Positions 1 through 50,299 of a DNA stretch of 64,000 nucleotides are shown piece by piece. The notes under the pieces are model-generated. The model searched no databases, was not told the DNA's origin, and saw only the letters and a program-made list of their open reading frames with translations. Position 1 is the first letter of the stretch. Each line of letters begins with the position of its first letter. The translations under genes and the position numbers were made by a program. Source of the stretch: Candidatus Cloacimonadota bacterium (GTDB lineage Bacteria; Cloacimonadota; Cloacimonadia; Cloacimonadales; Cloacimonadaceae); NCBI GenBank assembly GCA_029561955.1, contig JAKQWO010000070.1, forward strand, positions 1 through 64,000. The letters run 5' to 3'.

Positions 1-100
1 AGCAGGTTACACGTTTGGGCGGAGAAGGCGCTCAGAAAGTGGTGAACCTTTTCAAAAAGTCAAATATATCGATAATTTCTCGGTTTTTTACGGGGGATTT
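1..100 (+). repeat. Interspersed repeat R1, copy A (cut by window edge)
   Basis: The first 100 bases match the distal third of a roughly 300-bp repeat found in fuller form at 14668-14970, 32795-33100 (inverted) and 49953-50259. Shared blocks are GGTTACACGTTTGGG followed by GGTGAACCTTTTCAAAAAGT and then CTCGGTTTTT. The 5' part of this copy, including the hairpin seen in the other copies, lies outside the window. It is joined after about 20 bases to the separate hairpin element R2. Confidence 0.85.
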
Positions 101-119
101 ACCTCCTCACCACCCACCT

Positions 120-14522: not shown

Positions 14523-14667
14523 GCGAAATGTAAAGAATTATGAATAAAAGGAGAGGTTTACTAACTTCATACCAATCAGTTATGCCTATTACGATTGCCC
14601 TTTTCAAAACCTTTCCCTTTTTCCTCCTCACCACCCTTTATGCAAACCGGATTCATTTTACTCTCGA

Positions 14668-14970
14668 AACACCTACTATTTTAGTAGGTGTTCATTTCCG
14701 CGCACGGGTGTCGGGAAAAGCAGGTCTTTCTGAAATATTTGACTGTCGGACGGAAAAAAGTAACAGGAAACGGCCTTTTTTGACCCACCTTAAAGCCGCT
14801 GTTTATGCGGCGTCCCTGCCCCGCCCCTGCTCGGCTCCTCCTCCATTGAGCAGGAATGGCATGGGATTGCAATAGGTTACACGTTTGGGAGGGGAAGGGC
14901 CAAGAAAGAAGGTGAACCTTTTCAAAAAGTCAAATGTTTTGATATATTCTCGGTTTTTCAGGGGTGATTA
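14668..14970 (+). repeat. Interspersed repeat R1, copy B
   Basis: This complete copy starts with an 11-bp perfect hairpin (AACACCTACTA, TTT loop, TAGTAGGTGTT; 14668-14692). It continues through GCCGC-TGTTTAT-GCGGC, then GGTTACACGTTTGGG and ends at CTCGGTTTTTCAGGGG. On the minus strand it carries an uninterrupted frame of about 63 codons (14681-14872), also open in copies C and D. The preceding stretch 14523-14667 shows no gene or other feature I can name. Confidence 0.85.
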
Positions 14971-14979
14971 AGGCCCAAA

Positions 14980-15130
14980 ATGGCACCCTGTACGGGCACT
15001 CGCTGCGCACCGAAGGTACCGGCGTTAGCCGCACCGCTGGATGTACAGAGGACCCCGTACGGGGACAGTCTGCACATGGTCGGTTCAGCGACCGACCCTA
15101 CATGCGGCGGTTCAGTGACCGCCCGTACAG
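14980..15130. repeat. R3 palindrome cluster
   Basis: Two clear dyads are GGTCGGT-TCAGCG-ACCGACC (15078-15097) and GGCGGT-TCAGTG-ACCGCC (15106-15123). GTAC-containing degenerate copies precede them from about 14985. The loops share TCAGNG while the arms differ by paired changes. Confidence 0.65.
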
Positions 15131-15196
15131 TTGTAGATGAGGGGAAGAAAAGCTCAACCATAGGGATAGAGCCGATTGCATAATTCAGGATAAGCA

Positions 15197-32548: not shown

Positions 32549-32794
32549 CTAGATATTTGCTTATTAACCATGGCCTTACGCACAGATTTGTGGCAAGGCA
32601 GAAGCAGACTACTTCATTTTGAGGCAGCGTTTTTGAAACGCCCGAATTTGTCAATAACAAAATGAGTTTTATCCCACTTGGCTCTGATATTAACCGTTTT
32701 TTCACACTTTCATCTCCTGCAGCGGCAAGAGAGAGAAGCAAAAATCCACACCTCCTCTCCCACTTTTTTCTCAACAAAAGCGAGCATTCCCCAC

Positions 32795-33100
32795 CCCTAA
32801 TTTCCCCTGAAAAGCCGAGAATATATCGAAACATTTGACTTTTTGAAAAGGTTCACCTCTTTCTGAGCGCCTACTCCGCCCAAACGTGTAACCTGTTGCA
32901 ATCCTATGCCATTCCTGCTCGACGGAGCAAGAGCCAAGCAAGGGCGGGGCAGGGACGCCGCATAAACAGAGGCTTTGAGGAGGGTCAAAAAAGGCGTTTT
33001 CCTGTTACTTTTCCCCGTGCTGGGGTCAAATATTTCAGCAGAGCCCACTTTTTTAGGTGTCGGTGTCGAGAAATGAACACCCACTATTTTGGTAGGTGTT
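32795..33100 (-). repeat. Interspersed repeat R1, copy C (inverted)
   Basis: This full-length copy lies in reverse orientation to A, B and D. Its hairpin (33076-33100) has one mismatch and one wobble, so it is slightly decayed. The internal frame (32896-33111, plus strand) is open, and no insertions or deletions are seen relative to B and D over the roughly 200 bases compared. It lies upstream of infC; the intervening 32655-32794 shows nothing else recognisable. Confidence 0.85.
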
Positions 33101-33190
33101 TGACAGGATAATTGAGCCACGACTTATACTTGAATAATACACTAAACTCTTTCCCTTAGTTGAGCTTTTTTACCTCGTCACCCGCTTGGC

Positions 33191-33275
33191 CCTTGCTTAC
33201 CCGAAGGGAGATGCCGTGGTGATACTCGGGAAAAACCCGAGAGGCTCCGAGTAATCACTGGGCGGCTAAGCAAGG
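33191..33275 (+). repeat. Structured hairpin repeat R2, copy 2
   Basis: CCTTGCTTA (33191-33199) pairs with TAAGCAAGG (33267-33275). The internal CTCGGG-AAAAA-CCCGAG hairpin is at 33225-33241. It is about 90% identical by eye to copy 1 at 120-210, and both copies sit within about 100 bases of an R1 repeat. Confidence 0.75.
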
Positions 33276-33427: not shown

Positions 33428-34810
33428 TTATTTCAATACCGTCACCTTCTTGCTCACCTCACCGCTGTTGGTCTTGATGCGGATGAGATAGACTCCGGCA
33501 GGAACGGAACGGCTATTAGAATCTCTGCAGTCCCAGTTGTAGAGATACCGGTCACTGCTTTTATCATTGACTTCCAGGCTGCGCACTAACTGTCCCTTGA
33601 TGTTGTATATTTTGGCCTCCACGGGAGATCTGACATCTCTCTTGCTCAGGCTGATATTCATCATCCCCTTGGCGGGATTGGGATAAGCAGAGAGCATAGC
33701 GGGAGGAACTGCTACGGGATCGTCGTTGGGAGTGGGGCCATAATACTCCCAAGTGCAGGTGTGAGTGTCAGCTTGGGGACTGAACCAATATGGGGAACGA
33801 ACTACTCCTCTGGTCAACAGCCAGTTGTCATCGTAAGTGAAGGTATCATTGTAAACGGTATCGTCATCACTACCAAATTTACTAACAGACGCCTTATGAT
33901 AGTCATCGGAGTAGAAAAAGTTCATCGTAAAGGTTGATGTAGGCACGAAAGGTGCATCCAAACTGCTTACTAGTCCGATGAACCTGTTTTGCATCAGCGG
34001 AAAGTGCATCTGATGAGCGGTTATGTAGGAATAGTAGGTGTCAGTTCTTTCCCACCGGTCTTGGCTCCGGTTCTTCCACACCTTGGATAGATACCTCACC
34101 TCATTGCTATCGAAGAAGTTCTGCTGGATAGTAATATAATATCCATCCCTGGTGTAAGTGCTATCCGGTAAAGAGTGATTGCCCCAGGTCTGCCAGTCCT
34201 CAAACACCGTGTTTCCAACCCTTACCGTCTGCGAGTGAATTTGCCGGTTTTGAGCATCATAATCATAGGTGGTAGCCTCATAAGGTTCGGCATCAGTCCA
34301 ACTTTGGTAGATTTCCATCAGGACCACATTGCCTTTTTCATCATATCCGTATACAAACCTTTGAGTGCCACTTTCGGTGCCATCTTCCTCGAAAGAGACT
34401 GTCTCCCGCTCAAGTAGCTTGTCCTGCAAGTTGTAGGTATAAGTTGTAGTATATTGAAGCACATAACCATCTTCCTCCCAATAATTTTCCCAACCCTTGA
34501 AGTATTCGTTTTCAATCACCTGGCGATAATCAGCAAAGTCATGATACTCGTAAATGAGTTTTGAAAAGGTAGTAAAGTCAATGTTATCATGACATGATTG
34601 GATCAGAGTCAGACGATCCGGGATTTCCTCATCATAATAGTAATGATAACTGGTGTTTGAATAAAAGTAAGGGGTGGAGTTCTCTCTGCGGTCATATGTT
34701 TTTCTAAACTGTCCCATGGGCGTGGGCCCGATGTACTCATCGCCGAGGTTGACGATGGCACCGAGGCTGATAGCCAGGGTCAAAATTAGTAGAACAGTTG
34801 CTTGCCTCAT
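33428..34810 (-). CDS. Secreted YD-repeat-like protein with T9SS sorting domain, paralogue 4
   Basis: This 460-aa exported protein has a signal peptide (VLLILTLAISLGAIVNLG). The array-wide DEYIGPTPMGQFRK motif follows. The middle region carries YD-like repeats such as VYGYDEKGNVVLM and YDYDAQNRQ. A C-terminal domain of about 80 residues (SAYPNPAKGMMNIS ... GVYLIRIKTNSGE-VSKKVTVLK) matches the type A sorting signal used by T9SS. It is the last of four tandem paralogues. The function is unknown; cell-surface attachment or release is inferred. Confidence 0.8.
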   Translation of the reverse strand: MRQATVLLILTLAISLGAIVNLGDEYIGPTPMGQFRKTYDRRENSTPYFYSNTSYHYYYDEEIPDRLTLIQSCHDNIDFTTFSKLIYEYHDFADYRQVIENEYFKGWENYWEEDGYVLQYTTTYTYNLQDKLLERETVSFEEDGTESGTQRFVYGYDEKGNVVLMEIYQSWTDAEPYEATTYDYDAQNRQIHSQTVRVGNTVFEDWQTWGNHSLPDSTYTRDGYYITIQQNFFDSNEVRYLSKVWKNRSQDRWERTDTYYSYITAHQMHFPLMQNRFIGLVSSLDAPFVPTSTFTMNFFYSDDYHKASVSKFGSDDDTVYNDTFTYDDNWLLTRGVVRSPYWFSPQADTHTCTWEYYGPTPNDDPVAVPPAMLSAYPNPAKGMMNISLSKRDVRSPVEAKIYNIKGQLVRSLEVNDKSSDRYLYNWDCRDSNSRSVPAGVYLIRIKTNSGEVSKKVTVLK

Positions 34811-34847
34811 TTCTCTTCTCCTTTCATCAACGGCTGTTCATGGTAGA

Positions 34848-36227
34848 TTATTTGAGCACCGTCACCTTCTTGCTGACCTCGCCGCAACTGGTTTTGATGC
34901 GGATGAGATAGATTCCGGCGGGTACGGCACGGCTATGAGAATCTTTGCAATCCCAATTGTAGAAATACTGGTCACTGCTCTTGTCGCTAACTTGCAGGCT
35001 ACGCACCAATTGCCCCTTGATGTTGTAGACTTTTGCCTCCACAGGAGCTCTGACATCTCTCTTGCTCAGGCTGATGTTTACCATGCCTCTTGCGGGGTTG
35101 GGATAGGCAGAGAGCGTAGCGGGAGGAACTGCAGTGAGGTCGTCGTTGGCAGAGGTCCCATAATAATCCCAAGTAGTGGTTTTTGTATAAGGCACAACAC
35201 CATCGCCATAGTTCTGAGAATAGTTAGTCAACAGCCAATTGCTGTCGTAGGTGTATTCTTGGGTGTTTTCATACTCAGGAATGGATAGGGTTATCGAATG
35301 ATAATCGTCACTGTAATCATAGCTTCTCACGCTAACTGATACTGGCACATAAGCGTCATTGGGATCACTTACAAAGCTGGTGGCCACATAGACAGCGGTG
35401 GGAAATGCTCTCCCATCCACAAGCGTGTAAACAGTGTGTCGATCCACTCTTTCCCACATAACTTCCTCATCATCATTAAAGGGACGATATCTGTAAAACG
35501 TGGCAGAGTGATGGTTTTCCCCATTGTCATCATAATAGTTGCGGATAATGATCTCTTGCAAAGAGTTGTATGGGCAATTCAGGATACGGGTACTATCCGG
35601 CTTGGGATGATTGCTCCATGTATTCCATCTGGTCTGACTCACGGCCTGATATTGAGTAATTTGGCGATATATCTCACGATTCTGCGCATCATACTCGTAG
35701 GTGGTCACATCACGAGGAGTGTCTGCATCTTCATAAACATTGTATTCCCTTTTAAGTATCAGATTTCCATTTGCATCATAATCGTAAATTGCCTTATTGA
35801 TGCCACCGTAGTAGCCTTTTGGCAGGCAAAACTCAAGCAGCCTGTCTTGATAATCATACTTGTAATAGCCAGATATCGCAGGATCATTACCGCCGCTGGC
35901 ATACCAGGAATAACCACTCACGGTTTTCTGGTAATAATCATCAAACTCCGTGTAATCATAATAAAACCTGATGCCTTGTCCAATGTCATTTGACAGATAG
36001 CAGTGTAAAGAGTCAATACGAGTGGGCACGGAATCGTTGTAATAGTAGTAAAACCAGGTTTCCCCAAAGAGCCGGTAGTAATCGTAATCATCGTGGTGAG
36101 AGTAGTACTCAGTCTCCTTTCTAAACTCTCCCATAGGTGTAAAGCCGATATACTCATCGCCTATATTGACAATAGCACTCAGGCTGATGGCCAAGGCCAA
36201 GAGTAGTAGAATAGTTGCGTGTTTCAT
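34848..36227 (-). CDS. Secreted YD-repeat-like protein with T9SS sorting domain, paralogue 3
   Basis: This 459-aa protein has the same plan: signal peptide (LLALAISLSAIVNIG), DEYIGFTPMGEFRK, repeats such as IYDYDANGNLILK and YEYDAQNREIYR, a variable tyrosine- and aspartate-rich middle, then the sorting domain with AYPNPARGMVNIS and GIYLIRIKTSCGEVSKK. The variable part differs strongly from its neighbours while both ends are nearly constant, which suggests diversification between fixed export modules. Confidence 0.8.
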   Translation of the reverse strand: MKHATILLLLALAISLSAIVNIGDEYIGFTPMGEFRKETEYYSHHDDYDYYRLFGETWFYYYYNDSVPTRIDSLHCYLSNDIGQGIRFYYDYTEFDDYYQKTVSGYSWYASGGNDPAISGYYKYDYQDRLLEFCLPKGYYGGINKAIYDYDANGNLILKREYNVYEDADTPRDVTTYEYDAQNREIYRQITQYQAVSQTRWNTWSNHPKPDSTRILNCPYNSLQEIIIRNYYDDNGENHHSATFYRYRPFNDDEEVMWERVDRHTVYTLVDGRAFPTAVYVATSFVSDPNDAYVPVSVSVRSYDYSDDYHSITLSIPEYENTQEYTYDSNWLLTNYSQNYGDGVVPYTKTTTWDYYGTSANDDLTAVPPATLSAYPNPARGMVNISLSKRDVRAPVEAKVYNIKGQLVRSLQVSDKSSDQYFYNWDCKDSHSRAVPAGIYLIRIKTSCGEVSKKVTVLK

Positions 36228-36264
36228 GGTTTTTCTCCTTTAAGAATAGGTTGTTTTTGATGGT

Positions 36265-37629
36265 TTACTGTAGCACCGTCACCTTCTTGCTGACCTCGCC
36301 GCTGCTGGTTTTGATGCGGATGAGATAGATTCCTGCAGGGACGGCACGGCTGTGAGAATCTTTGCAGTCCCAGTTGTAGTGGTATTGGTCGCTGCTCATC
36401 TGGCTAATATCCAGGCTGCGCACCAGTTGTCCCTTGAGGTTGTAGATTCTGGCTTCCACGGGGGCGGGTGCATCTCTTTTGCTTAGGCTGACATTGACCA
36501 TACCTTTGGCAGGATTTGGATAGGCGGAAACCATAGTTGGAGGAACAGCTACGGGGTCGTCGTTGAATGCCGCGCCATAGTATTCCCATGTATTGTAGTA
36601 ATGGTGATGCTCATAAAGAACGTGATCGACATCATATTCATGCCCGGTCAACAGCCAGTCGGCATTATAATAATACATCTCGTTATAAATCTCGCTCTCG
36701 CTCGGAGTTACGGACACGGTACGATAGTCGTTGGAATAAGTATAATTCACTACAGTGCTTGTGTCTTGGGTATAAAAGGGGCCACCAGCTTCTGTTGACC
36801 AGCCTTTGATTTTTAAGATCTGAATTGGGAAGTGGACTTGATGAACAGTTACATACAGATAGCTGTAATCAGACCTGCTCCAGACAGTTGCAGTGGATTG
36901 CTTAAACCACGTTTGCCTGTGGTGCCTCTGCCCATTTTCATCAAAGAAGTTTTTCTCTACTTTCACTGTGGCACTTTGCCAAGTGTAAGTGCTGTCCGGC
37001 AAGGAGTGATTGCCCCATTTCTGCCAGACCTCAGACTTTCTCACCCCATAATCTGTGAACAGTTTGTGAGTCAGCCGGTTTTGAGCATCATAAGCATAGG
37101 TAATCACTCGGGTAGGCTCTGTCCCCTCGCTCCAATTCCTGTAAAGAGATTCTTGAATCAAGTTGCCACTGTCGTCGTATTCGTAGATGGTTCTATCAGC
37201 ATTACCACTGGTAACGGAGACGGAAATGTATTCAAGCAGCTTATCCTGCAGATCATAGATGTAAGTTGACTCGTTTATATGCTCATATCCGCTATAACCC
37301 TCATTCCAAGCATCCCAGCAGTCGAGATAGTAGCTTACGATCATTTCGCGGTGATCGTCTAACTCTTGATATTGATACAACCATTTTTTAAGCTCATGCT
37401 CATGATACTCCGGATTGGAATATGAGCTCTCGACCCTGATCAAACGAGTTGGGATGTCTTCATCATAGTAGTAATTAGTATGGGATTCCGTCATGCCTCG
37501 GAAACTTCCTTTTGAGATCTTTCTAAACTCTCCCATCGGCGTAGAGCCAATATACTCATCGCCGATATTGACAATCGCACCGAGGCTGATAGCGATGGCT
37601 AAGAGTAGCATAATAGTTGCTCGTTTCAT
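36265..37629 (-). CDS. Secreted YD-repeat-like protein with T9SS sorting domain, paralogue 2
   Basis: This 454-aa protein has signal peptide, DEYIGSTPMGEFRK, YEYDDSGNLIQESLY and AYDAQNRLTHK repeats, and the conserved C-terminal sorting domain ending VSKKVTVLQ. The spacing to the flanking paralogues (37 and 52 bases) and common strand suggest one transcript. No catalytic motif is visible. Confidence 0.8.
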   Translation of the reverse strand: MKRATIMLLLAIAISLGAIVNIGDEYIGSTPMGEFRKISKGSFRGMTESHTNYYYDEDIPTRLIRVESSYSNPEYHEHELKKWLYQYQELDDHREMIVSYYLDCWDAWNEGYSGYEHINESTYIYDLQDKLLEYISVSVTSGNADRTIYEYDDSGNLIQESLYRNWSEGTEPTRVITYAYDAQNRLTHKLFTDYGVRKSEVWQKWGNHSLPDSTYTWQSATVKVEKNFFDENGQRHHRQTWFKQSTATVWSRSDYSYLYVTVHQVHFPIQILKIKGWSTEAGGPFYTQDTSTVVNYTYSNDYRTVSVTPSESEIYNEMYYYNADWLLTGHEYDVDHVLYEHHHYYNTWEYYGAAFNDDPVAVPPTMVSAYPNPAKGMVNVSLSKRDAPAPVEARIYNLKGQLVRSLDISQMSSDQYHYNWDCKDSHSRAVPAGIYLIRIKTSSGEVSKKVTVLQ

Positions 37630-37681
37630 GTCTCTTCTCCCGATAACTTGTTGTCCTCGATATGTTCTACCTCATTTTAAA

Positions 37682-39007
37682 TCATTTTAATACCGTCACC
37701 TTCTTGCTGATCTCACCACTCTGGGTTTTGATGCGGATGAGATAGATTCCGGCGGGGACGGCGTTGTTTCGCTGATCTTTGCAATCCCAGTTGTAGAGGT
37801 ATTGGTCGCTGCTCATCTGGCTAATATCCAGGCTGCGCACCAATTGTCCCTTGAGGTTGTAGATTCTGGCCGCTGTGGGAGCATTGGCACTGCTCTTGTT
37901 CAGGCTGATGTTTACCATGCCCCTTGCAGGGTTGGGGTAGGCGGAAACCATCACCTGTGGGACAGCTACGGGGTCGTCATTGGGGGTGGCGTATTGTTCC
38001 CAAGTGTAGGTAATAGTTTCTTCCACAAGATTGCCGTAAGCCCTCTGACGCTCAGCTAACAGCCAATTATCATCGTAGACATAGGTGTAGTCACCAAAAG
38101 TCACCCGATGATAATCATCCGAGTAGATATAGTTATCCACCTCGTTTGACAATTCCTCGACTGATCCATCCTCATATACCCTTGAAAAGACGGTAGTTGT
38201 CTGAGTAGGAAAGTATATTTGGTGAGCGGTCACATATTGGTAGTAAGTATCAAGCCTGTCCCAGGGGGCACCATTCCAATATTTGATGCAATATTCGTGG
38301 TGGAAAACCTGCTCGTTGGCGTCAAAGAAGTTTCTCTGGATACTCTCCCAGTCTTCTCCCAGGGTGTAAATGCTATCCGGTTGAGAGTGATTGGTCCAGG
38401 TCTGCCAGGTCTCAATCGTCTCATATATCCCAATCTCTCGATTGTAAATCAGCCGATTCTGACCATCATAACCAGAAGTAATCGCTTGGTAAGGCACGGT
38501 GTCACTATAGAGACTGACATACGTGGTTTCTTGAACCAAGTTGCCGCGATCATCATATTCATACACTGTTCTCTCACTGCAACTATCGCGGTAATACTCC
38601 ATAATGCGTTCAAGCAGCTTGTCTTGCAAGTCATATTTGTAGGTAGTCTGAATCTCGAGCAGATAGCCATCAGGATATTGGTTCCACTGATCATCAAAGA
38701 CATATATGCTTTCGATTTTCTGGCGATAATCGTCAAACTCAAGGTACTCATACACGGTTTCCGTATGACCGCCATCAGGTTCGTCAAAGGTATATACGAT
38801 CTTGACCAAGCGGACAGGATCGTCTACATCATAATGGTAGCAAATCCTGCTCACCACATCATAATCCTGGCCGATGTAGGAATAGGTTTCAAGTGTCTTT
38901 CTAAAAGGCCCCATAGGCGTAGAGCCAATATACTCATCGCCGATATTGACAATCGCACCGAGGCTGATTGCCAGCGTTAATAAAAGCAGAAAAGCACTTT
39001 GTTTCAT
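37682..39007 (-). CDS. Secreted YD-repeat-like protein with T9SS sorting domain, paralogue 1
   Basis: From the ATG at 39007 the product is 441 aa, starting with signal peptide KQSAFLLLLTLAISLGAIV. A longer frame reaching 39067 lacks a signal peptide and is unlikely. It has DEYIGSTPMGPFRK, YEYDDRGNLVQETTY and a sorting domain with AYPNPARGMVNIS and GIYLIRIKTQSGEISKK. It is the promoter-proximal member of the array. Confidence 0.8.
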   Translation of the reverse strand: MKQSAFLLLLTLAISLGAIVNIGDEYIGSTPMGPFRKTLETYSYIGQDYDVVSRICYHYDVDDPVRLVKIVYTFDEPDGGHTETVYEYLEFDDYRQKIESIYVFDDQWNQYPDGYLLEIQTTYKYDLQDKLLERIMEYYRDSCSERTVYEYDDRGNLVQETTYVSLYSDTVPYQAITSGYDGQNRLIYNREIGIYETIETWQTWTNHSQPDSIYTLGEDWESIQRNFFDANEQVFHHEYCIKYWNGAPWDRLDTYYQYVTAHQIYFPTQTTTVFSRVYEDGSVEELSNEVDNYIYSDDYHRVTFGDYTYVYDDNWLLAERQRAYGNLVEETITYTWEQYATPNDDPVAVPQVMVSAYPNPARGMVNISLNKSSANAPTAARIYNLKGQLVRSLDISQMSSDQYLYNWDCKDQRNNAVPAGIYLIRIKTQSGEISKKVTVLK

Positions 39008-39223
39008 CGTCTCATCTCCCATACATTTTTGGGATCGTACGACGTGCATGATATGTTCCAAATTCATAACTATTTAGTCTTATCCGGAAGAATAATGTTC
39101 CTGCTATGAGTGGAAAAGGGGCAAAGAGCTTTTCTGGAAGCGATTGTAAAGCCTCAGGGCCACACATATTTCAGCAAAGAGCACACGAAACATGGAAGCC
39201 AGCGCAGCGGCTCATTACTACCT

Positions 39224-46733: not shown

Positions 46734-46758
46734 TTTGTCGTAATAAAGTCCTGTTTCT

Positions 46759-46803
46759 GGTCGGTCCGGCGACCGACCCTACCAACGGCGGTTCAGCGAC
46801 CGT
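46759..46803. repeat. R3 palindromes (two units)
   Basis: GGTCGGTC-CGGC-GACCGACC (46759-46778) is a perfect 8-bp dyad. A second unit, CGGCGGT-TCAGCG-ACCG, follows within 10 bases. They lie between rlmD and htpX. Confidence 0.65.
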
Positions 46804-49952: not shown

Positions 49953-50259
49953 GAATGCCTACTAATTTAGTAGGCATTCGTTTCTGAGCACCGCCACCGG
50001 AAAAAGCCGGGCTTTCTGAAATATTTGCCCCTCGCACGAGAAAAAGTAACAGGAAAACGCCATTTTTGATACCCATCAAAGCCGCTGTTTATGCGGCCTC
50101 CCAATACCGCTCCTGCTCGGCCCCTGCTCCGTGGAGCAAGAACCACGTAGGATTGCAGTAGGTTACACGTTTGGGCGGGGAAGATCCAAGAAAGTAGGTG
50201 AACCTTTTCAAAAAGTCAAATGTTTCGTAAATTTCTCGGATTTCCGGGTGAAATTAGGT
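49953..50259 (+). repeat. Interspersed repeat R1, copy D
   Basis: The 5' hairpin is GAATGCCTACTA-ATT-TAGTAGGCATTC (12 perfect pairs, 49953-49979). Relative to copy B, two base pairs have changed on both sides (C:G to T:A and A:T to G:C), so pairing is preserved. The minus-strand frame is open over the same 63 codons as in B. It borders the GTPase pair. Confidence 0.85.
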
Positions 50260-50299
50260 ACCCAAATGGACTATGTTTTGGGGTGAGAGGAATGGTAAA

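Follow-up and report, generated by a model that had tools for sequence, protein, structure and literature searches.

What is R1, the repeat of about 300 bp that recurs in this DNA from the Cloacimonadota, an uncultivated but abundant phylum? The window (the whole stretch of 64,000 nucleotides analysed here) was found to hold three complete copies and one 3' fragment, with pairwise identities of 78-84%, well above chance. This agrees with the preliminary description, which had read R1 as a repeat of several copies opened by a covarying hairpin, and had seen in it a functional RNA or DNA element, perhaps an ncRNA or the end of a mobile element. The complete copies were matched at 14668-14970 (+), 32798-33100 (-) and 49954-50256 (+). 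The copies as whole elements and the parts of copy B are the following.

1..102, plus strand: R1 copy A, 3' part only; the contig begins here.
14668..14980, plus strand: R1 copy B, complete, with 5' palindrome, variable spacer, phased core and 3' arm.
14668..14692, no strand: 5' palindrome AACACCTACTATTTTAGTAGGTGTT of copy B, with the inverted half-sites CCTACT (14672) and AGTAGG (14683), 11 bp apart.
14738..14743, plus strand: TTTGAC motif in the 5' arm of copy B, forming an imperfect inverted repeat with the 3' arm.
14814..14879, no strand: core array of copy B in 11-bp register, three forward and then three reversed half-sites.
14929..14935, plus strand: GTCAAAT motif in the 3' arm of copy B, 133 nt past the core anchor.
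32790..33100, minus strand: R1 copy C, complete and inverted, with its palindrome at 33100-33076 and its array at 32954-32889.
49954..50266, plus strand: R1 copy D, complete, with its palindrome at 49954-49978 and its array at 50100-50165.

All complete window copies opened with the palindrome AACACCTACTA-WWW-TAGTAGGNGTT, and the hairpin-like start reported earlier was thus borne out as sequence. In copy B the core register reads CCCTGCCCCGC CCCTGCTCGGC TCCTCCTCCAT in the forward half-sites and TGAGCAGGAAT GGCATGGGATT GCAATAGGTTA in the reversed ones. An ORF of 111 aa at 14540-14875 of the window extends into this copy; its frame is lost in most other copies, and it is probably spurious.

A sequence-only profile detected 55 R1 copies in the genome of the window (G000) and 86 and 76 copies in two sister species (G001 and G005, respectively), all three genomes being draft MAGs; a DNA search of G000 gave at least 40 copies. 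The profile search did not find the R1 sequence in three further species of the genus (G002-G004) or in 101 further genomes of the order. The strict palindrome pattern occurred 37, 21 and 16 times in the three R1 genomes and was absent from 23 other genomes of the family. When 84,980 species were scanned with a pattern, matches were observed only in two Cloacimonadota MAGs, UBA3900 and JPNG_metabat.107. A plasmid or phage origin was dropped, because R1 had no match in the collections of either.

The R1 copies were intergenic and their geometry was fixed. R1 does not stem from segmental duplication of part of a gene, the alternative named at the outset. In G000 the distance from the core anchor to the 3' GTCAA was 133 nt for 45 of 46 copies; in G005 it was 143 nt for 60 of 63, and G001 mostly had 132 nt. 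The stretch between palindrome and core anchor measured 124 nt in G000 and G005, within 1 nt for most copies, and most copies of G001 had 113 nt there. This geometry was constant despite the variable sequence between palindrome and core, which was 71% identical within G000 against a background of 56%. In the three species, 43, 39 and 30 copies carried the palindrome at their 5' end. In most of 12 other copies it took an alternative place, 48-49 nt past the 3' GTCAA anchor, and both places were occupied in one copy only. Across the copies the palindrome centre was seen both ways round, TATTTTA and TAAAATA, as if it were inverting or templated from either strand.

The core is laid out in 11-bp steps, with three forward half-sites followed by three reversed ones. 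Lag 11 gave the top autocorrelation of the cores in all three species, and all of the 142 cores tested for 11-bp phasing lay above the 99th percentile of shuffles. The R1 cores belong to a class of 11-bp phased arrays. The 5' palindrome, too, is a pair of inverted CCTACT half-sites at a distance of 11 bp. Its half-site is 143 bp (13 x 11) from the first half-site of the core, and the G001 spacer is shorter by 11, which is suggestive of a common register for palindrome and core.

Arrays of this class were also found outside R1. In G003, a genome of the R1 genus that is without R1, the dominant dispersed repeat had the same architecture in unrelated sequence: three CACCCTTGT units in 11-bp steps and then three in reversed orientation. 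A de novo array scan was set up on 11-bp repetition plus dyad symmetry, with score cut-offs of 45-46. Since the scan was devised after the repeats of G003 and of G006 (a closed genome of 2,246,820 bp from another genus) had been seen, its yield of 13 arrays in 194 kb of G003 and 20 arrays in 400 kb of G006 is descriptive; R1, G017 and E. coli provided the independent test. The scan detected 13 arrays in 160 kb of G017, again of several families, and none in 200 kb of E. coli. No array was observed in the shuffled controls at score 46 (G006) or 45 (G017). The G006 arrays fell into three sequence-unrelated families, with the units GCTTACCCATT, CCGTAACACTT and ATTCCCATATC. The signal was specific to period 11, apart from about 155 matches at each of the periods 7-9 in G003, which were taken to be runs of N; under the scoring rule, a run of N cannot exceed 44 at period 11, where the cut-off is 46. 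A 62-kb sample of G038 gave no arrays, and small samples of G020 and G022 gave few or none. Among the R1-lacking species of the R1 genus (G002-G004), the scan covered G003. Dyad symmetry was weaker in the R1 arrays (14-19 of 33) than in those of G003 or G006. Changes in the array arms were mostly one-sided (87 versus 9 both-sided, 5 of those 9 compensatory), which fits protein half-sites on DNA, unlike RNA stems.

R1 copies keep apart from each other. In the three species, 123 intervals between R1 neighbours had a minimum of 9.4 kb, and 3 of them were below 10 kb against 44 expected. The same was observed in each species: 58 intervals in G005 (minimum 9.8 kb, 2 below 10 kb versus 20 expected), 50 in G001 (minimum 9.4 kb, 1 versus 18 expected, CV 0.39) and 15 in G000 (minimum 13.6 kb, 0 versus 5.8 expected, CV 0.28). 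Interval medians were near 17-23 kb, with a floor of about 9-10 kb; for R1 the floor was equal for same- and opposite-orientation neighbours. Arrays were present on all large contigs. The main features of R1 are this genome-wide spacing and the 11-bp phased core.

The exclusion also operates across families. Pattern searches over the whole G006 chromosome gave 101 arrays (44 alpha, 44 beta and 13 gamma), whose families interleave with a smallest interval of 9,257 bp. No interval was below 9 kb, compared with 33.5 expected and 20 in the lowest of 5000 simulations. Between families the count below 9 kb was 0 of 66, where a family-rotation null had a mean of 23.4 and a minimum of 6. Three pattern matches were left out of these counts, being unlike the array unit and as frequent as matches in the reversed-pattern control (2+2); with them included, 2 of 104 intervals were below 9 kb against 35 expected. 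As unrelated families are under one spacing rule, neither family-specific target immunity nor recombination between repeats can explain it.

Long stretches without arrays were also found, up to 112 kb in G005 and 98 kb in G006 (G005 C14 3.4-115.6 kb, G005 C4 54-142 kb and G006 931-1029 kb). Missed copies within the long G005 gaps were ruled out by a second profile built from the G005 core, which returned the same 76 sites and none extra, long gaps included. The core matches were bimodal: all 76 scored at least 90 bits, and no other match exceeded 24.3 bits. These stretches could be acquired DNA or the home of a further array family, and their existence means that strict regularity is not required everywhere.

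Positions of R1 were partly conserved between species, and the core sequence was species-specific. Nineteen pairs of G000 and G005 copies lay between orthologous flanking genes, with the same orientation in 16; copy C of the window matches a G005 copy in position and orientation (pair W32798/L140). The pairs at orthologous positions were 7 same and 3 flipped for G000/G001, and 10 same and 1 flipped for G001/G005. Core identity was 0.716 to the ortholog versus 0.708 to cross-species non-orthologs, and 0.85-0.87 within species. That the sites are conserved and their sequence homogenised suggests either gene conversion or in-place replacement within each genome. When exact positional homology was examined between G003 arrays and R1 copies, they had no more than neighbouring genes in common, with sites 1-3 kb apart.

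We consider it likely that R1 locally represents a class of intergenic DNA elements, regularly spaced and putatively protein-bound, that organise or segregate the chromosome. We infer both the binding protein and the organising function. A multimeric DNA-binding protein would read the array along one face of the helix, in steps of 11 bp. The bound array may then serve as a landmark on the chromosome or anchor it for looping, compaction or segregation, perhaps as a loop anchor or domain border, and each stretch of roughly 10-20 kb would need or tolerate only one array. With array and reader co-evolving, the sequence would turn over and the architecture and spacing would stay, and the copies within a genome may be homogenised through gene conversion or replacement.

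The prevailing view divides bacterial chromosomes into topological domains on a scale of about 10 kb, and we know of no sequence-defined, evenly spaced boundary or anchor elements found in bacteria so far. On balance, we lean towards a broader proposal, in which the Cloacimonadota chromosome is split into units of about 10-30 kb marked by phased palindromic arrays. Several sequence-unrelated families would coexist on a chromosome, be equivalent in function and share one exclusion distance, and their sequence would turn over between species as architecture, spacing and many positions persist; this would be a previously undescribed organising system. In the open-access literature, no published description of such arrays was found. 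Arrays with a hard spacing rule of about 9-10 kb that holds across unrelated families would make domain organisation directly testable by sequence, Hi-C and protein pull-down, and they offer an uncommon example of site sequence that turns over rapidly while its geometry stays constant.

R1 could instead be a non-autonomous, MITE-like transposable element, with target immunity of its mobility machinery barring a landing within about 10 kb. Such an element would account for the high copy number, the restriction to one genus and a young G000 subfamily, whose members are 91-94% identical and have common flanks. The three flipped G000/G005 pairs, formed by recent-looking G000 copies with 87-93% identity to the window copy, are in line with it. 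We nevertheless regard this origin as unlikely. To our knowledge, transposition target immunity is family-specific, and here the exclusion reaches across families of unrelated sequence within one genome. Scars of transposition were absent: the target-site duplications that the preliminary description had proposed to look for were not found in 115 copies, with no direct repeat above background at k=5-8 and a best k=4 signal of 12/115. No decayed R1 relics or fragments were detected in G005, where no match fell between 24.3 and 90 bits. The length stayed fixed despite about 36% divergence between species at four-fold degenerate sites of the flanking genes, and orientation was kept at 16 of the 19 shared positions.

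The R1 arms are imperfect inverted repeats, and searches for Y1_Tnp and RVT_1 did not reveal an autonomous partner element. Mobilisation by a RAYT or a reverse transcriptase was rejected, since a Y1_Tnp (RAYT) match is absent from G000 and RVT_1, in G000 a single protein of 848 aa, is present too in genomes without R1. The 848-aa open frame, at L177 (G000 C34:15515-16093), contains the reverse transcriptase domain, and its N-terminal part looks Cas6/RAMP-like by eye.

The arrays might also belong to a large regulon as its gene-regulatory sites (operators, terminators or promoters). Regulators can bind to palindromic arrays, and the G006 arrays were intergenic in 19 of 20 cases, the exception being within an ORF of 111 aa. 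The gene context offered little for this idea, which seems rather improbable to us. With ORFs called by a simple longest-ORF rule, the genes next to R1 were divergent in 48, tandem in 65 and convergent in 30 cases, and those next to the G006 arrays in 5, 8 and 6 cases, with no strong preference in either set. R1 had no fixed relation to the neighbouring genes, the distances to which varied widely, and a regulon would not impose an exclusion of 9-10 kb. Spacing ignores sequence family, orientation and neighbouring genes, and placement follows chromosomal position rather than gene context, as for sites of the matS/SlmA type.

That R1 is a family of structured small RNA genes, as the covarying hairpin had seemed to indicate, is very improbable. 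Hairpins can be drawn, and concerted evolution is seen in multicopy RNA genes too. Copies B and D do differ in the letters reported (CA/TG versus TG/CA). In an alignment of 38 G000 copies, a standard pair was present in 10 at stem pair 4 and in 30 at pair 3, leaving the two supposedly covarying pairs unpaired in 28 and 8 copies. A.A was the commonest combination at pair 4, and pairs 5-9 hardly varied. Stem changes are thus unpaired in many copies, which overturns the covariation. In G000 the TTTGAC/GTCAAA arms paired no better within a copy than across copies (permutation p 0.96, with 0.025 for G005), and mutual information over 59 ungapped copies of two species gave no nested helix. Apparent cross-species covariation at columns 61/65 and 129/134 was set aside as a lineage difference and not a sign of nested helices. 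Both strands of R1 fold about equally well, with no strand preference, and an Rfam scan returned only tRNAs at gathering thresholds, which left R1 without a family. Neither 11-bp phasing nor exclusion on the kilobase scale is a property of RNA. Pair counts, arm-duplex permutations and mutual information together excluded a covarying RNA hairpin. What R1 keeps is the palindrome sequence, the fixed geometry and the phased core; conservation of structure through covariation was not supported. Of the functions first proposed, a functional element stands, given the intergenic location and fixed geometry, and an ncRNA or mobile-element end is not supported.

Finally, the over-dispersion is most unlikely to come solely from recombinational purging of nearby direct repeats, with arrays devoid of an organising role: homologous recombination between such repeats can delete the genes between them, but the exclusion was alike for same- and opposite-orientation neighbours, it held for sequence-unrelated families, which cannot recombine, and same-family intervals were not clearly longer than cross-family ones (medians 17.8 and 16.5 kb).

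We then compared these putative organising elements with known systems. In parS sites and plasmid iteron arrays, a DNA-binding protein recognises half-sites that are phased or inverted, and in this they resemble the arrays. They are confined to a single cluster or a few, close to an origin, whereas the arrays number about 80-100 per chromosome and are spaced. MatP/matS and SlmA appear to be closest by function, and we would not file the arrays as a member of either. The matS site has 13 bp and 23 copies, in Ter only, and the SlmA site has 12 bp and 50 copies, excluded from Ter and mainly in coding regions (PMC3116907). Like the arrays, both comprise many dispersed sequence-specific sites with palindromic motifs, placed by position and not by gene. 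Unlike the arrays, which are 3+3 helically phased and intergenic, they are single short motifs with a macrodomain bias; a hard minimum spacing, several unrelated families per genome and presence on all large contigs set the arrays apart.

MITEs and the enterobacterial RU repeats are noncoding interspersed intergenic repeats of 100-300 bp (PMC2759123). R1 resembles these and ERIC in such features, and differs in having no target-site duplication or relics and in a spacing floor common to unrelated families. REPs are short, clustered and accompanied by a RAYT gene (PMC2817692). REP/BIME elements are, like R1, intergenic, palindromic and present in many copies per genome; unlike R1 they are short, clustered and RAYT-linked, and G000 has no Y1_Tnp match. 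The REP description is fitted by R3, REP-like palindromic repeats of the TGTACGGGCGGTCGCTGAACCGCC type that adjoin R1 (window 14990-15140, 46758-46802 and 282-326). In G001 and G005, R3-type repeats were seen around genes for RAYT-like Y1 transposases of 224 aa.

Several minor observations were made around the R1 loci. A further palindromic repeat of intergenic DNA, R2 (CTTACTTACCCGCAGGGCGATGCCGTGGTGATACTCGGG...CCGAGTAATCACCGGGCGGCTAAGTAAGG), often adjoins R1; it was located at 105-207 and 33173-33275 of the window and in the flanks of many R1 loci. Within the young G000 subfamily, L002, L003, L005-L010 and L013 have a common 5' extension of about 49 nt, GCTCAAGTTCAATTAGGGTGGATAGAAGCAAAGACACAAGAAGCGTTCA, and L003, L005 and L006 also have about 200 nt of 3' flank in common. 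Some members of this subfamily are flipped relative to their orthologs. On the minus strand of the window, 33428-39067 contains four tandem paralogous genes of about 460 aa each, with a period of about 1.4 kb and 75-84% DNA identity over the best block.
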